From Haloplanus sp. HW8-1 (GTDB taxonomy: Archaea; Halobacteriota; Halobacteria; Halobacteriales; Haloferacaceae), in assembly GCF_023703795.1 (NCBI RefSeq), contig NZ_CP098518.1, positions 434,001-498,000 on the forward strand: DNA of 64,000 nucleotides. The letters run 5' to 3'. The notes under the pieces were generated by a model. That model did no database searches and was not told the origin of the DNA. It saw only the letters and a list, made by a program, of their open reading frames with translations. The position numbers and the translations under genes are program-made. This document shows, in pieces, positions 47,882-61,711 of this stretch. Position 1 is the first letter of the stretch, and the number at the start of each line of letters is the position of its first letter.

Positions 47882-49797
47882 GCTCCGTAGACAAGCAACT
47901 CGAGGAACTGAAAGCAGAGATCGAAGACGAACTACCCCCTGGTATCTCCGTATCCGACGTCAAATACGAGGGCCCGGAACTGGTCGTGTACACGCGTGAC
48001 CCGAAGGAGTTCGCCAGCAATGGTGATCTGATTCGGAAGCTAGCGAGCAAGCTTCGCAAGCGCATCACGGTGCGCCCCGATCCCGACGTGTTGATCGACG
48101 CCCGCGAGGCACGCGAGCGGATCCGGAGCGTGATTCCCGAGGACGCGGGCGTGACCGATCTGGATTTCCACGTCGACACCGGCGAAGTCGTCATCGAGGC
48201 GGAAAAACCGGGAATGGTCATCGGCCGCCACGGCTCGACGCTCCGGGAGATCACCAAGGAAATCGGCTGGACGCCCGAGGTGGTCCGCACACCACCCATC
48301 GAATCCTCGACCGTCTCGAACGTCCGAAACTTCCTCAAACAGGAGCGCGAGGAGCGCCGCGACATCCTCGAACGCGTCGGTCGACAGATCCACCGCGAGG
48401 AGATGGCCGACGACCAGTGGGTGCGCATCACCACCCTCGGCTGCTGCCGGGAGGTCGGCCGTGCGAGTTTCATCCTCTCGACCGCCGAGACGCGCGTACT
48501 CGTCGACTGTGGCGACAAGCCCGGCGCCGAGGGCGAGGTGCCATATCTGCAGGTGCCCGAAGCGGCGCCACTCAACTCCATCGACGCCGTCATCCTCACC
48601 CACGCCCACCTCGACCACTCCGCGCTCATCCCGCTGCTGTTCAAATACGGGTACGACGGCCCGATCTACTGCACCGAACCTACCCGGGACCTGATGGGCC
48701 TACTCACGCTCGACTACCTCGACGTGGCGGTCAAGGAGGGGCGCACGCCGCCCTACGAGAGTGAGATGGTTCGCGAGGCGATCAAACACACAGTTCCCCT
48801 CGAATATGGCGACGTGACCGACATCGCGCCGGACGTAAAACTCACGTTCCACAACGCGGGGCACATTCTCGGCTCCGCAATCTCCCATTTCCACATCGGC
48901 GACGGCCTCTACAACGTCGCGTTCTCGGGTGACATCCACTACGAGGATACTCGGCTCTTCAACGGCGCCGTCAACGACTTCCCGCGGGTGGAGACGCTCG
49001 TCCTCGAATCCACCTACGGCGGTCGGAACGACTATCAGACCGATCAGGAGGACTCCGAGCGCAACCTACTGGAAATCATCAACGAGACCCACGAGAAGGG
49101 TGGCAAGGTCGTCATCCCGGCCTTCGCCGTCGGGCGCTCCCAGGAGATCATGCTCGTTCTTGAGGAGGCGATGCGAAGCGGGAAGATTCCGGAGATGCCC
49201 GTCCACCTCGACGGCATGATCTGGGAAGCCACGGCCATCCACACGACGTATCCCGAGTATCTCCGTGACGACCTCCGGGACCGAATCTTCCACGAGGACG
49301 AGAATCCCTTCCTCGCCGAGGAGTTCAACCACATCGACGCCGGCGAGGACGAACGCCAGGAAGTGACCGACGGCGACCCGGCGATCATCCTCTCGACCTC
49401 GGGGATGGTCACCGGCGGACCGATCATGTCGTGGCTCCGCCACCTCGGCCCCGACCCGGACTCGACGCTCGTGTTCGTCGGCTACCAGGCCCAGGGGACC
49501 CTCGGGCGCCGCATCCAGAACGGCTGGGACGAGATTCCGATGAACGACCGCGAACGCGGTGGCCGCGGCAACACCCTCTCCCTGAACATGAACGTGGAGA
49601 CGGTCGACGGCTTCTCCGGCCACGCCGACCGGCAGGGACTGGAGAACTTCGTCAAGACGATGAACCCACGTCCGGAGAAGGTACTCTGTGTCCACGGCGA
49701 CGAACGCTCCGTGCAAGACCTCTCCTCGGCGCTCTATCACGACTACAACATGCGGACGTTCGCGCCGAAGAACCTCGAAACGTTCCGGTTCAAGTGA
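47878..49797 (+). CDS. KH-domain beta-CASP ribonuclease aCPSF1 (FttA)
   Basis: A 639-residue RNase related to eukaryotic CPSF73. Archaeal members cut nascent RNA near its 3' end and terminate transcription (FttA). The N-terminal tandem KH domains (about 1-145, GMVIGRHGSTLREI) bind RNA. The metallo-beta-lactamase core has ILTHAHLDHSALIP, and the beta-CASP part has AFAVGRSQEIM, STSGMVTGGP and the C-terminal SGHADRQGL and CVHGD histidines. Length is standard. It is the second beta-CASP RNase of the window besides RNase J. Confidence 0.96.
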   Translation: MSSVDKQLEELKAEIEDELPPGISVSDVKYEGPELVVYTRDPKEFASNGDLIRKLASKLRKRITVRPDPDVLIDAREARERIRSVIPEDAGVTDLDFHVDTGEVVIEAEKPGMVIGRHGSTLREITKEIGWTPEVVRTPPIESSTVSNVRNFLKQEREERRDILERVGRQIHREEMADDQWVRITTLGCCREVGRASFILSTAETRVLVDCGDKPGAEGEVPYLQVPEAAPLNSIDAVILTHAHLDHSALIPLLFKYGYDGPIYCTEPTRDLMGLLTLDYLDVAVKEGRTPPYESEMVREAIKHTVPLEYGDVTDIAPDVKLTFHNAGHILGSAISHFHIGDGLYNVAFSGDIHYEDTRLFNGAVNDFPRVETLVLESTYGGRNDYQTDQEDSERNLLEIINETHEKGGKVVIPAFAVGRSQEIMLVLEEAMRSGKIPEMPVHLDGMIWEATAIHTTYPEYLRDDLRDRIFHEDENPFLAEEFNHIDAGEDERQEVTDGDPAIILSTSGMVTGGPIMSWLRHLGPDPDSTLVFVGYQAQGTLGRRIQNGWDEIPMNDRERGGRGNTLSLNMNVETVDGFSGHADRQGLENFVKTMNPRPEKVLCVHGDERSVQDLSSALYHDYNMRTFAPKNLETFRFK

Positions 49798-49810
49798 TCG
49801 CGGAGCGGCC

Positions 49811-50224
49811 ATGAGACGCCAACTGACCGATCGTCTCTACGTCGGGGATCGGACCGCAGCGCGGAACATCGAGGACCTGACCGAGGCGGGGATCACCGCC
49901 GTGCTCAGGCTAACACACGGTACGCCCCCTCCGTACCCCGACTCGCTGACCGTCATCGAACGGCCGCTGGTCGACGGGCCACAGAACGACCTCTCGAACT
50001 TTCGGGTCGCGACCGATCGACTGACTGCGTTGCTCGACGCCGACGAGACGGTTCTCGTCCACTGTTCGGCGGGCAGTTCCCGGAGCGTCGCCGTGGCCGG
50101 TGCCGTACTCGCACGGCGGGAGGGTGTCGACGTCGAGACGGCGCTCACCCGCCTACAGTCGGTACACCCCGAGGCCGATCCACACCCCGCGCTGGTGGAT
50201 CACGCCCGTCGCGTCGTCGAGTGA
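49811..50224 (+). CDS. Dual-specificity protein phosphatase
   Basis: A 137-residue cysteine phosphatase. The active-site loop HCSAGSSRS holds Cys85 and Arg91, and the general-acid aspartate is probably in VDGPQND near residue 55. It dephosphorylates Ser/Thr/Tyr, substrate unknown. It starts 13 bases after aCPSF1. A Hanks-type kinase lies in the same window, but no direct link is shown. Confidence 0.92.
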   Translation: MRRQLTDRLYVGDRTAARNIEDLTEAGITAVLRLTHGTPPPYPDSLTVIERPLVDGPQNDLSNFRVATDRLTALLDADETVLVHCSAGSSRSVAVAGAVLARREGVDVETALTRLQSVHPEADPHPALVDHARRVVE

Positions 50225-56061: not shown

Positions 56062-57297
56062 CTATCCGGCCAGGCGCTCCCTCGCGAACTTCCCGAGCAG
56101 GGGCACGTCACGGAGGTGGAGAAGCTTCAGCATCGCGCGGACGTTGCCCGCGTTGGCCTTCGCCAGCATGTCGCTGTCGGCGCTCCGGAGGTCCGCCATC
56201 AACGTGTCGTACCGGTCGTTGGGCGCGAGATAGAGGAGTTCGGTCATCAACAGGCGCTCGCGCATTCGGGGTGCGACCTCGCTGTGCCAGAGCTTGCTGT
56301 ACACCGACATCGCCTCGGCGGACGTATCGGGGTCCGCCTCGGTGAAACACCGATCGGCGGTGATGGCGGCCATGCGTCCCGACTTCATCCCCTTGTGGAT
56401 ACCCTCGCCCCAGAGCGGATCGATGGTCGGCACCGCGTCGCCGATGGCCATGAAGCCGTCCGTACAGAGCTGTCCGGGCATCTGAATGTGGGCCGAGCCG
56501 CGGTGTTGCTGTTTCTCGGAGATACGTTCGGTGTCGGCGAAACGCGGGTCGGTGTCGAGCCAGTGGTGGAGGTAATCGTCGATGCTTGCCCCGTCGCGGC
56601 CGTACCGCTCGTGACTCTCGTTTTGAATGTAACAGAGGCCGACTTTCGCGGTGTCGCCGCCGGTGTGGAAGACCCAGGAGTACCCTCCGGGGGCGTACTC
56701 GTGGTCGAGGCGGAGCATCATCGCGTCGGTGAGGTCGGCGTACTCCGGGTGGTCGACGTCGACGCCGGCTAGCTCCCACTCGATCCCGATGGCTTGCTGT
56801 TCTCGGCGTAGGTCGCTCACGCCGAGTTCCTTGGCCAGCGGCGCGGCCGGTCCCGTCGCGTCGACGACGATGTCGGCGTATGCCTCCTCGTCGCCCGCGT
56901 ACCGGACGCCCTCGATCACGCCGTCGGCCATGATCGGTCCGTTCACACGGGCGTCGAAGCGGTAGGTCGCACCCTCCTCGCACCCCTCGCTTACCAGCCA
57001 CTGCTTGAACTCGGCGAACTCCAAGACTGCACCGGGCTGGTGCTGGACGTAGTGGTCGTTGGGCGACTCCAACACCACGTCGTCCGTGTAGTTCATCACC
57101 ACCTCGTCAGGTACGCCGAAGGATGCCATCATCGAGGGGAAGGTGCCGGCAGTCGACTTGTTGCTCTGGCGGGGGAACCCGTCCTCGGCCTCCGCCTCGA
57201 GGACGAGCACGTCGTAATCCCGCTGAGCGAGGTCGCGGGCACACTGGGCTCCCGCGGGCCCGGCGCCGGCGACGATCACGTCGAAACGGTCGGACAT
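56062..57297 (-). CDS. Geranylgeranyl-reductase family FAD enzyme
   Basis: A 411-residue flavoprotein. The FAD Rossmann motif is VIVAGAGPAGAQCA near residue 8, then EAEAEDGFPRQ with an R typical of geranylgeranyl reductases, YSWVFHTGGDTAKVG in the substrate domain and the second FAD motif DGFMAIGDAVPTIDPLWGEG (quoted from GDAVPTIDPLWGEG). It could saturate prenyl chains of ether lipids or modify menaquinone. Haloarchaea have several such paralogues, so the exact substrate is uncertain. It lies 69 bases downstream of the chaperone-kinase gene. Confidence 0.9.
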   Translation of the reverse strand: MSDRFDVIVAGAGPAGAQCARDLAQRDYDVLVLEAEAEDGFPRQSNKSTAGTFPSMMASFGVPDEVVMNYTDDVVLESPNDHYVQHQPGAVLEFAEFKQWLVSEGCEEGATYRFDARVNGPIMADGVIEGVRYAGDEEAYADIVVDATGPAAPLAKELGVSDLRREQQAIGIEWELAGVDVDHPEYADLTDAMMLRLDHEYAPGGYSWVFHTGGDTAKVGLCYIQNESHERYGRDGASIDDYLHHWLDTDPRFADTERISEKQQHRGSAHIQMPGQLCTDGFMAIGDAVPTIDPLWGEGIHKGMKSGRMAAITADRCFTEADPDTSAEAMSVYSKLWHSEVAPRMRERLLMTELLYLAPNDRYDTLMADLRSADSDMLAKANAGNVRAMLKLLHLRDVPLLGKFARERLAG

Positions 57298-57366: not shown

Positions 57367-60300
57367 TCACCGACGATCCCCGCTTTCGGTGCCGGTCGAT
57401 CGGACGTCGCCGTCGTATACTTTTTCCAACACGTCCCGAAGCGCGTCACGGAGGTAGAGCGTCGACTCGTAGCGATTCCCCCGCTCGGTCGCCAGCGCGG
57501 TCAGGAGGACGTCGTCAAGGGCTTCGGGGACGTCCGCGAAGTCGCTCGGCGGCGGTGGCGTTTCGGTCCGGCGCCGTTCGGCGATCCGTCCGGCGTCACC
57601 GCGGAACGGCGGTCGTCCGGTGAACAGTTCGTAACAGACCGCGCCCAGTTGGTACACGTCGGTGACGGTGTCGACCGACGTGTCGTCGTCGAACTGCTCG
57701 GGTGCGGCGTACGTCGGGGTGTACTCCGCCGTCGTCCGCGGTCGTTCGAGCAGTCGCCGGGAGAGCCCCCAGTCGGCCACCTTCGGCACGTCCCATCCGC
57801 CCTCGACCGACCGGAAGAGGACGTTCGCGGGTTTCAGATCGAGATGGGCGACGCCGTGCCGGTGGGCGTGGTGGACGCCCCGCGTCGTCGCGACGGCGGT
57901 CCAGAGCGCCTGTGTCGTCGGCAGTTCCCCCGCCCGATCGCTCAGGTCCCCGCAGTCCATGAACTCCATCGCGATCCACGGAACCGGGCGCTCGCCCCAG
58001 TCGACGACGCCGACGACGTGGTCGTGATCGTCGAGGCCCGCCCACGTCCGTGCCTCGTCGACGAACCGTTCGCCGATCTCCGCGTGGAGAGTCCCCGAGA
58101 ACCGCGGTTCCTTGAGCGCGACCGTCAGGCCGTCCCCCTCGACCGTCGCTTCGTAGACGTCGGCGCGGCCACCTCGGCCGATCCGGTCGCCCCGCACGAG
58201 CGCCCCGTAATCGAGGCCCCGGTCGGGTGCCCGAGGGACCTCCTCGGGTGGCCCGCGCTCCGCCGCCGCCGACCCGTCGCTCACGACGACCGTCGCCGGC
58301 CGTTCGACCCGCCCGTCCCGCGTGTAGCCGACCCGACGGACCTCCAGGATCGTCCCGCGCGGACGCGTCGACTCCACCGTCGTGCCCGCACTGTGCCGGT
58401 CGGGGTCAAGCCGCGTCCCCGGGGCGGGGTCGACGAGCGTGACCTCGCTCCGTTCGAGCGCGCCGTCGATCCGTCGTCGTGTGGAGCGAACCCACCCGTG
58501 GAGCCGGTCGACGGTCCGCGGATCGCCGTCGACCGCCCGGTCGATGTCGTCGGCGACCGCGACCACAGCCTCGTCGATCATCCCGGTCACTTCCCCGGCA
58601 GTCAGACGGTCGAGCTTCCGACGCGTCGCGCGCAACCCCTCCTGAATCGGTCCGGGGTCGTCGGCGTCGGCGTCGAGCGCCCGCGTCAGGTCGTCGCGGA
58701 CATCGAGAAGGCGTTCGATCTCGTCGGCCGTCGGCGATCGGTCGGCGCGGCGGAACTTCGTCTCCTCGCAGTCTCGTCTTTCGGCATCATCGTCCGTCCC
58801 CGTGTCGTCGGTATCGGCATCGCCGTCCGTCTCGTCCGCCGCCGCGAACGTCCGGAACTGGGCCGTCTCGGCGGTGCCGTCCGTCTCGGCCGTCGACGAG
58901 ACAGTCAGGACGCCGTCCGCGTCGACCGCGAACTCGATTCCGACCTCGGGAATACCCGCCGGTGCCCGCGGAACGTCCGGCACGGTGAACTCGCCGATCG
59001 GCTCCGGGTCGTCATCGCCGCACAGGGCCCGAACCCGGACGGACGTCTGGTTGTCCTCGCCCGTAGTGAACGTCTTCGACTCCCGGCAGGGGAGCGGCGT
59101 CCCCGCCTCGACGAGCGTTTCGAACCCACCCGTCGCCGTCTCGACCCCGAGGGCGGCCGGCAGGAGCGGTGGCCGAGTTATCCCGGGCACGTCGCCGGTG
59201 TGGACTTGATTCGTCGGGAGCGGTTCGTGGGTGTACGCCGGCCTGTAGGCGGCGATCCCCGCCGGATCTTCCGGCGGGACGTCGGGGAGATCCGAGTCGC
59301 CCGGTGCCTGCCCGAACAGGACCCACCGACTCCAGGCGACCGCCGAGTCGGTGAGCCGCGGCTCATCCCCGACCAAGAGGTCGCCCAGCGTCTTCCCGTC
59401 CGCGCTCTCGGCGCCGATGTTGACGAACTCGTTCTCGTCGACGTCGACGCGAACGTCGATCCGGGGCTCTCCGGCCGGCGCGTCCGGAATCCCCCCCGCC
59501 ACGAAATCACCGAGATCGACGCCGTCGTCCCCGTGGATCCCGCCCTCCCGTATCCGAATCCGGGCCTCGCGTTGTCCGTCGACCGTCGTCGTGAACGTTT
59601 TCGATCCGTCGGTGGGGATCGACGTGTCCCGCTCGACGATCGGTTCGAAGTCCTCGTCGTCGACCACGACGCCGATCGGACGTGGACACTGATCGATCAG
59701 GACGACGTCGTCGATCGTTCCGGTGAGGATACCACCCTGGATCGCCGCTCCGAACGCGCCGGCGACGGCCGGATCGACGCCGGTCGAGGGAACCCGATCG
59801 ACGGCCGCTTCTATCGCCTCCCGAACCGCGGGCATTCGCGTCGTACCCCCGGCGAGGACGACGTCGTCGACGTCGGCGGGTACGACGCCGGCCGCGTCGA
59901 GGACGGCCTCGATCCGCTCGACGAGACGGTCGCGGAGGTCGACGGTCATTCCGTTGAGTTGCTCCCGTGTCAGGGCCTCCTCCAAGTCGAGCGGGCCGTC
60001 GTCGGTGACGGTGACGAACGGCAGGTTGACCTCGGACCGCTCGCGGGCGGAGAGCTGGGTGCGGGCGTCGGCCGCCGCCTCGATCAGCCGTCGCCGGGAC
60101 CCTGCGTCGTCCCGGAGGTCGACGCCGTGGTCGGCGTCGAACCGTTCCGCGAGGTGGTCCACGACCGCCCGGTCCCAGTCGTCGCCCCCGACGTCGCCCC
60201 CGCCGGTCGTCTCGGTGATGTACGCACCGCGGTCCACCTCGAAAAGGCCCACGTCGAACGTTCCCCCGCCGAGGTCACAGACGAGTACGTTCCGTTCGTC

Positions 60301-60795
60301 CCCGTGACCCGGTGTCGTGGCCATCGCGGCCGCCGACGTCGCGAGGACGATCCGCTCGGTCCGGAGGCCGGAGAGCGAAACCGCGTCCCGGAGCCGCCGT
60401 CGGTACGTCCTCGTCGCGCGGTTCGGGACCGTGAGGACCACGCCGCGCGGTGTCGACTCGTCGCCGTCCGTCGCTGCGGGGACGCCCCTCGCGACGACCG
60501 CCGCCGCGAGCGTCTCCGGCGGGTAGGAGACGTCGTCGACGACGAACGGGTCGCCCGTCCGGAGGCGATCGACGAGGTCTGTCGCCGTCCGTTCGGGGTG
60601 GGTTACCGCCCGACTGGCGGCGCGTTTTCCGGCCAGTAGCGTCCCGTCGTCGGCGACCGAGACGACCGTCGGGGTCGTCTCGCGACCCTCGGCGTTCATG
60701 ATCGGTCGGGGGCGGTCGCCGTCGTAGACGGCACAGCGTGTCGTCGTGGTTCCGAAATCGAGTCCAACGATACTATCCTGCAGGGACGGTGACAC
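57367..60795 (-). CDS. Hsp70 - tandem substrate-binding - GrpE - Ser/Thr kinase fusion protein
   Basis: A 1142-residue multidomain protein. Residues 9-365 are an Hsp70 ATPase domain (GLDFGTTTTR, DLGGGTFDVGLF at 174-185, LAGGTTRMPAV). Residues about 366-470 and 543-640 are two successive DnaK-type substrate-binding beta domains, the second with GVETATGGFETLVEAGTPLP and DNQTSVRVRA. Helices at about 690-785 lead into a GrpE-like head (DPDRHSAGTTVES at 798-810, GYTRDGRVERPATVVV). Residues 862-1125 are a Hanks kinase: GRGGRADVY, Lys895, Glu914, HLDLKPAN (non-RD, Asp986), DWG at 1008-1010 in place of DFG, and APE at 1031-1033. No J domain or membrane segment is seen. GTG start with a TATA-like box at 60819-60826, 27 bases upstream. 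It probably couples client binding to phosphorylation. Confidence 0.93.
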   Translation of the reverse strand: MSPSLQDSIVGLDFGTTTTRCAVYDGDRPRPIMNAEGRETTPTVVSVADDGTLLAGKRAASRAVTHPERTATDLVDRLRTGDPFVVDDVSYPPETLAAAVVARGVPAATDGDESTPRGVVLTVPNRATRTYRRRLRDAVSLSGLRTERIVLATSAAAMATTPGHGDERNVLVCDLGGGTFDVGLFEVDRGAYITETTGGGDVGGDDWDRAVVDHLAERFDADHGVDLRDDAGSRRRLIEAAADARTQLSARERSEVNLPFVTVTDDGPLDLEEALTREQLNGMTVDLRDRLVERIEAVLDAAGVVPADVDDVVLAGGTTRMPAVREAIEAAVDRVPSTGVDPAVAGAFGAAIQGGILTGTIDDVVLIDQCPRPIGVVVDDEDFEPIVERDTSIPTDGSKTFTTTVDGQREARIRIREGGIHGDDGVDLGDFVAGGIPDAPAGEPRIDVRVDVDENEFVNIGAESADGKTLGDLLVGDEPRLTDSAVAWSRWVLFGQAPGDSDLPDVPPEDPAGIAAYRPAYTHEPLPTNQVHTGDVPGITRPPLLPAALGVETATGGFETLVEAGTPLPCRESKTFTTGEDNQTSVRVRALCGDDDPEPIGEFTVPDVPRAPAGIPEVGIEFAVDADGVLTVSSTAETDGTAETAQFRTFAAADETDGDADTDDTGTDDDAERRDCEETKFRRADRSPTADEIERLLDVRDDLTRALDADADDPGPIQEGLRATRRKLDRLTAGEVTGMIDEAVVAVADDIDRAVDGDPRTVDRLHGWVRSTRRRIDGALERSEVTLVDPAPGTRLDPDRHSAGTTVESTRPRGTILEVRRVGYTRDGRVERPATVVVSDGSAAAERGPPEEVPRAPDRGLDYGALVRGDRIGRGGRADVYEATVEGDGLTVALKEPRFSGTLHAEIGERFVDEARTWAGLDDHDHVVGVVDWGERPVPWIAMEFMDCGDLSDRAGELPTTQALWTAVATTRGVHHAHRHGVAHLDLKPANVLFRSVEGGWDVPKVADWGLSRRLLERPRTTAEYTPTYAAPEQFDDDTSVDTVTDVYQLGAVCYELFTGRPPFRGDAGRIAERRRTETPPPPSDFADVPEALDDVLLTALATERGNRYESTLYLRDALRDVLEKVYDGDVRSTGTESGDRR

Positions 60796-60847: not shown

Positions 60848-61711
60848 TCAGTAGAACTCGCGAACCAGATCCATCGCGTCCTCGGGCGCGCCGTCGGGGA
60901 TGTCCGACATGTCCGCGTCGACACCGTGGCTCCGTTCGTAGGGCACGGAGTCCTCGTCCCGATAGAGGACGCCCTGGTACTCCTTGCCGGGGTCGAGGAT
61001 GCGCGAGCGGGCGTCCTCGTAGCTCGTCGGGTCGTGGTCCGTCTCGTCCAGGTCGACGATGTGGTCCCGGAAGTAGTCGTAGGTGTCCACGTCGTTGAAC
61101 GTCACGCAGGGGGAGAACACGTTGACGAAGCCGAAGCCGTCGTGTTCGACGGCCTGCTTGACGATTTCGGCGTGACGTTGGGCGTCCGTCGAGAACGACT
61201 GTGCGATGAACGTGCCGCTTGCGGCGAGCGCGAGCGCGAGCGGATTCACGGGTGGCTGCTGTGGCCCCTCGGGTGTCGTCGAGGTTTCGAAGTCCTCGCG
61301 ACTGGTCGGCGAGGCCTGGCCCTTGGTCAGCCCGTAGATACGGTTGTCCATGACGACGTAGGTCATGTCGACGTTGCGGCGGACGGCGTGGATGAAGTGG
61401 CCAGCGCCGATGGAGTAGCCGTCGCCGTCGCCGCCCGCGACCATCACTTCGACGTCGGGGTTGGCGAGTTTGACGCCGGTGCCGACCGGGAGTGCGCGCC
61501 CGTGGACGCCGTGGATGGCGTAGGAGCGCATGTACGTCCCAATCTTGCCGGAACAGCCGATGCCGGCGACGACGAACGTCTCGTCGGGGCTGTTGCCCGT
61601 CTCGGCCAGGGCTTTCATCATTCCGTTCATCGTCCCGAAGTCGCCGCATCCGGGACACCAGGTCGGCTGTGCGTCGGATTTGAAGTCGGTGAATCGAACG
61701 TCTGAGCTCAT
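60848..61711 (-). CDS. korB: 2-oxoacid:ferredoxin oxidoreductase beta subunit
   Basis: A 287-residue thiamine-diphosphate subunit. WCPGCGDFG and GCSGKIGTY hold the cysteines near the cofactor and the cluster, and GDGDGYSIGAGH is the magnesium-thiamine diphosphate motif (GDG...N). Together with korA it decarboxylates a 2-oxoacid (2-oxoglutarate or pyruvate) to an acyl-CoA, passing electrons to ferredoxin. Its ATG overlaps the korA stop (ATGA). The next gene starts 52 bases on, with its own promoter. Confidence 0.96.
   Translation of the reverse strand: MSSDVRFTDFKSDAQPTWCPGCGDFGTMNGMMKALAETGNSPDETFVVAGIGCSGKIGTYMRSYAIHGVHGRALPVGTGVKLANPDVEVMVAGGDGDGYSIGAGHFIHAVRRNVDMTYVVMDNRIYGLTKGQASPTSREDFETSTTPEGPQQPPVNPLALALAASGTFIAQSFSTDAQRHAEIVKQAVEHDGFGFVNVFSPCVTFNDVDTYDYFRDHIVDLDETDHDPTSYEDARSRILDPGKEYQGVLYRDEDSVPYERSHGVDADMSDIPDGAPEDAMDLVREFY

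Follow-up and report, generated by a model that had tools for sequence, protein, structure and literature searches.

Hsp70, a GrpE head and a Ser/Thr kinase are joined on one chain in a haloarchaeal protein. We show that this Hsp70-GrpE-kinase fusion is a real, rare architecture, found complete in eight genomes. One of these belongs to Haloplanus sp. HW8-1, from which we analysed a stretch of 64,000 nucleotides (the window). On balance, the sequences lean towards the fusion being a cytosolic sensor-kinase, in which a fast-evolving Hsp70-derived module is the predicted input to the kinase.

The fusion is encoded by a continuous frame of 1142 codons, for which a first-pass annotation had the right coordinates (Table 1). 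The same annotation put all three parts, chaperone, GrpE head and kinase, on one chain. Profile searches of the translation support this, with matches to PF00012, PF01025 and PF00069. HSP70 is matched in three stretches (E 1.6e-115), and the second SBD-beta, one of the two such units that had been proposed, matches this profile separately (positions 376-536, E 1.9e-18). The kinase had been called complete, and it both matches PF00069 (E 1.7e-32, residues 869-1071) and keeps its catalytic residues. PF01025 is matched by residues 743-839 (E 5e-18; 65.8 bits against a cut-off of 25.8), covering profile positions 66-164 of 165. The GrpE part is thus a beta-head with short helices. To this extent the GrpE-like segment stands as first described, while the long N-terminal paired helix of GrpE is absent, the PF01025 match beginning only at position 66. 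The SBD-alpha lid is also absent; the best HSP70 match stops in the SBD-beta and is followed by the second SBD-beta (Pfam and AF2). On reading, the fusion sequence showed neither a signal peptide nor a membrane segment.

Table 1. Positions in the window of the fusion, its parts and its two neighbouring genes.
Feature	Position	Strand	Description and basis
Whole fusion ORF	57367..60795	minus	1142 aa, 1142 codons + stop, GTG start
Hsp70 NBD, residues 8-365	59701..60774	minus	PF00012, residue table, AF2 model against DnaK structures
Interdomain linker and first SBD-beta, ~residues 366-468, without SBD-alpha lid after	59392..59700	minus	Profile, BLAST, residue table, AF2
Second SBD-beta, ~residues 530-645	58861..59208	minus	Separate HSP70 match, BLAST to canonical DnaK SBD, modelled beta structure
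Four-helix segment, ~residues 689-790, running into the first part of the GrpE match	58426..58731	minus	Pfam, AF2
GrpE beta-head, ~residues 791-842, motifs DPDRH and GYTRDGRVERPATVVVS	58270..58425	minus	PF01025; alignment with E. coli GrpE and the genome's own GrpE; low-confidence model
Hanks-type Ser/Thr kinase, ~residues 866-1122: K895, HLD D986, DWG D1008, YAAPEQ from 1029	57430..58200	minus	PF00069, motifs
korB (2-oxoacid:ferredoxin oxidoreductase beta subunit)	60848..61711	minus	52 bp upstream of the fusion; kept neighbour in the genus; named by sequence resemblance
FAD-dependent oxidoreductase, geranylgeranyl-reductase-like ("GGR")	56062..57297	minus	Next gene downstream of the fusion; named by sequence resemblance

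Structure prediction agrees with most of this layout. The AF2 model (pLDDT 70.7, pTM 0.49; 28-row alignment) recovers the Hsp70 part, both SBDβ units, the four helices and the kinase, and its best Foldseek matches are DnaK structures. The GrpE head is poorly modelled, without a confident fold, probably because the 28-row alignment lacks GrpE rows. At this pTM we do not trust the relative placement of the domains.

The fusion is not the housekeeping chaperone machine, since canonical dnaK and grpE genes are encoded separately in the same genome; this also rules it out as their replacement. Nor does it reach the NCBIfam cut-offs for DnaK equivalogs (421 against 648 bits for NF001413; 413 against 822 for TIGR02350). 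It shares a homologous NBD, SBD-beta and GrpE head with the DnaK-GrpE system, from which it differs in being one chain with no lid, no long GrpE helix, an altered active site and an attached kinase.

Mapping co-occurrence across haloarchaeal genomes identified the eight full fusions, which are spread over two families. Four are from the window's own family, in which 170 genomes were searched (this genome, G370, G423 and G463), one is from G051, and three are from Halomicrobium: H. katesii (G172), H. mukohataei on plasmid pHmuk01 (G103) and Halomicrobium sp. LC1Hm on a plasmid (G059). The search probe was a profile of the GrpE-kinase half; two fusions matched weakly with the window sequence alone as query, and an alignment search recovered both. 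Fusions occur in 6 of the 392 genomes of the order sample (Halobacteriales), and a 393-genome phylum sample gave no full match outside the order. A profile of the helices and GrpE head picks out seven genomes at E ≤1.9e-56, namely the six order-sample fusions and a kinase-free form in G186, all other matches lying at ≥1.7e-27. Pfam also recovers this architecture in five other fusions, and in G186 the form without a kinase; in G463 the GrpE match is slightly below the PF01025 cut-off. Matches from Chloroflexi and Halorientalis that apparently spanned GrpE and kinase were rejected, as no GrpE head was found on reading them. No relative of the GrpE-kinase part was detected in viral contigs.

Architecture varies around a constant core of NBD, SBDβ, helices, GrpE head and kinase. 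The tandem SBDβ of the window protein recurs in G463 and is not universal among the fusions: G051 has a single SBDβ, and the Halomicrobium fusions have one ahead of the NBD and one behind. In the latter (L039, L046), a short piece resembling the end of an NBD precedes the extra N-terminal SBD-beta, which suggests partial duplication of an Hsp70 gene. The GrpE head is retained in all members. In G186 (L041 3447-5651), the Hsp70-GrpE protein ends directly after this head, with no kinase remnant seen beyond it and a TnpB gene 0.7 kb downstream. This protein may be either a remnant left by truncation or a version that has no kinase.

The fusion occupies a variable slot in an otherwise conserved locus. 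All 12 genomes of the genus share the gene order korA-korB-...-GGR-aldo/keto reductase, and in three of them the korB–GGR interval holds the fusion: this genome, G423 (83% identity) and G370 (59%). The interval is only ~74 bp in G199, and other congeners carry unrelated genes there, such as transporters or an FAD-dependent oxidase. This distribution indicates presence or absence of the fusion at a variable slot. The syntenic copies in two congeners, together with copies in five more genomes, rule out an assembly or frameshift artefact, and thereby the concern that two genes had been joined by error. No target or regulator gene adjoins the fusion in the window, and no MoxR-vWA or GTPase conflict genes were seen beside it. 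An ORF with an HCSAGSSR motif, dual-specificity phosphatase-like, lies ~7 kb away (49688-50224, plus strand). G373 (L123) has a second korA-korB pair ~6 kb from the first. On pHmuk01 (L046 7750-20843), HEAT-repeat, vWA and AAA ATPase genes adjoin two kinases ~10 kb from the fusion, in a MoxR-vWA-like arrangement.

The fused kinases have conserved catalytic residues. The VAIK Lys, HxD Asp, Asn, DxG Asp and APE are kept in 8/8 fusions (K895, D986, N991 and D1008 in the window protein, three of which, the VALK lysine and the HxD and DxG aspartates, had been numbered correctly in the first-pass annotation). In the window kinase HxD reads HLD and DFG reads DWG, and the Halomicrobium fusion kinases are without an aligned alpha-C glutamate. 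At least nine genes of this genome encode kinases of the same family, most with other N-terminal modules; several are preceded by PQQ propellers, by membrane segments or by a further kinase, and relatives in other haloarchaea by HEAT repeats or by a UvrD-like helicase. The haloarchaeal PQQ, HEAT and membrane-segment Ser/Thr kinases share the HLDLKP, ADWG and YAAPEQ motifs with the fusion and often have the kinase C-terminal, behind a sensor-like module. In the fusion, by contrast, that module is Hsp70-GrpE. Related Ser/Thr kinases are expanded in number on C1 of this genome (near 72.7k, 374k, 1756k, 2306-2310k, 2328-2331k and 2411k; L127-L132), where they carry PQQ propellers, membrane segments or a twin kinase domain. 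On a Halarchaeum plasmid (L047), at least six kinases of the family lie within 30 kb, and a PP2C phosphatase gene stands in their midst.

Fused kinases are phylogenetically scattered. In a tree of 65 domains, the fusion kinase clusters with PQQ and HEAT kinases of haloarchaea. The kinases of the fusions form several groups, and those of Halomicrobium stand apart. The data reject a single clade of all eight (p-AU 7.5e-7, with a log-likelihood 101 lower), while one clade of the five non-Halomicrobium kinases is not rejected (p 0.28). The NBDs of nine Hsp70 parts group together with moderate support (77/89), long branches being present. This suggests that the pairing formed or re-formed at least twice. 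The simplest reading would be that one Hsp70-GrpE lineage was joined to kinases at least twice, or that its kinase was swapped.

The fusion gene is constrained yet fast-evolving. Between congeners, the whole gene has a dN/dS of ~0.44 and its kinase part one of 0.26-0.29; in two flanking genes the ratio is 0.04-0.11. Within the fusion it is below 1 in every domain, and the kinase is the most constrained. With occurrence in eight genomes and at least two kinase lineages, the Hsp70-GrpE-kinase pairing looks selected. That the fusions are decaying genes or chance joinings without function is very improbable: fast evolution and the lost Hsp70 active-site residues would fit, but dN/dS stays below 1 in every domain, all eight are open frames of more than 1000 codons, and the pairing recurs with at least two kinase lineages.

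The Hsp70 active site is altered in two different ways. Residues were numbered on E. coli DnaK, whose sequence was checked against PDB chains. The first-pass annotation had called the ATPase intact, which it is not: the window protein has Val75 for K70, Asp76 for R71, Leu151 for N170 and Ala152 for E171. Across the window clade the changes are K70V, R71D, E171A/A/S and N170L/L/H, and the window protein retains T199 and D201. The other Hsp70-GrpE members keep K70 and have D201S, with T199S or C in the fusions among them. Canonical haloarchaeal DnaKs keep K70, R71, N170, E171, T199 and D201 in 18/18 cases. K70 touches the γ-phosphate of ATP, and replacing it reportedly incapacitates Hsp70 allostery; T199A greatly lowers ATPase activity and spares allostery; N170 contacts the linker residue D393 (PMC12406271). 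Catalytic roles are ascribed to both K70 and E171 (PMC5240922). Because of the replaced K70, E171, N170, D201 and T199 residues, all members probably hydrolyse ATP only weakly, and the window clade has probably lost the coupling that ATP drives. The earlier suggestion that Hsp70 ATP turnover drives phosphorylation is therefore not supported: the window protein is without K70, E171 and N170 equivalents, and the other clade is without D201 and has T199 replaced in its fusions.

Known proteins resemble the fusion in part. We found no description of an Hsp70-GrpE-kinase chain in the open-access literature, a coverage outside which most subscription papers fall. A chain with a Ser/Thr kinase and an HSP70-like domain was listed for the bacterium Pirellula sp. 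in 2005 (gi|32474490; BMC Genomics, PMC1262709). It is set apart by its description, with HSP70 C-terminal to the kinase and neither GrpE nor a second SBD mentioned (PMC1262709). It was thus fair to regard the arrangement as not known to be characterised. WP_012807418.1 (HMUK_RS15695; H. mukohataei, pHmuk01), annotated only as "nucleotide exchange factor GrpE" in public records, is a direct relative with the same core. Its order is SBD-beta, NBD, SBD-beta, helices, GrpE head and kinase; its kinase is of another lineage and, unlike the window protein, it keeps K70 and has lost D201.

For the sensor-kinase that we favour, the receiving end would be the Hsp70-derived module (NBD and one or two SBD-beta units, no lid) with its in-cis GrpE head. 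The SBD-beta units may recognise either hydrophobic peptides that lie exposed or one specific partner, which ATP would release little or not at all; the GrpE head may hold an NBD, either the fusion's own or that of the cell's DnaK. Binding would alter kinase contacts or dimerisation, and the kinase would then phosphorylate itself and a target. The fusion may still sense clients. A narrower version, in which the fusion would be a single-chain archaeal unfolded-protein sensor whose non-cycling Hsp70 receptor, with an in-cis exchange factor, directly switches a damage-reporting Ser/Thr kinase, we put forward only tentatively and regard as rather doubtful.

The GrpE head might instead act on the cell's DnaK. 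With PERK and IRE1, an Hsp70, BiP, is coupled to a kinase that could report misfolding; these are separate proteins, with a membrane involved, and their resemblance to the fusion is functional only. BiP has been proposed to act on PERK and IRE1 much as DnaK might here: the GrpE head, perhaps with the SBD-beta, would bind DnaK in trans, free DnaK would keep the kinase off, and misfolded proteins occupying DnaK would release it. The genome has canonical DnaK and GrpE genes as well, and the head is kept in all members; given the degenerate state of the NBD on its own chain, the head may have been retained for a different one. We nevertheless consider this unlikely, since a whole Hsp70 NBD and SBD-beta would be unneeded for such a role.

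Slightly less likely still is a conflict or defence role, in which a variable, partly plasmid-borne kinase would sense phage or plasmid disturbance via an Hsp70-like receptor. This would fit the patchy distribution, the variable position within the genus, the rapid evolution and the plasmid location in two Halomicrobium genomes, as well as the kinase, vWA, AAA ATPase and HEAT genes in the same pHmuk01 region. HSP70 and GrpE genes, and a kinase in another theme, are reported outside housekeeping in GAP1-N2 GTPase conflict systems; in the parts of that account consulted these are bacterial systems of separate genes beside a GTPase, with no Hsp70-GrpE-kinase fusion (PMC7159879). However, the window copy is flanked by housekeeping genes and has no effector beside it, PADLOC matches are confined to the kinase domain, and viral contigs hold no relative.

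A shade less probable again is the direction taken in the first-pass annotation, a working chaperone, an ATP-cycled Hsp70 that would hand bound clients to the kinase for phosphorylation. The Hsp70 parts of the fusions keep D8, T11 (or Ser), D194, P143, the linker hydrophobics and D393, and two members keep E171. Against this stand the loss of K70, R71, E171 and N170 in the window clade and of D201 in the other, and the missing lid after the SBD-beta.

The sensor-kinase reading has a wider bearing. The fusions are a natural case in which the ATP-handling residues of Hsp70 have been lost in two different ways, with SBDβ and the GrpE head kept. How Archaea sense misfolded protein and relay this to signalling is poorly known. 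With Hsp70, a GrpE head and a kinase on one chain, in more than one kinase lineage, such sensing could be tested directly with one purified protein.
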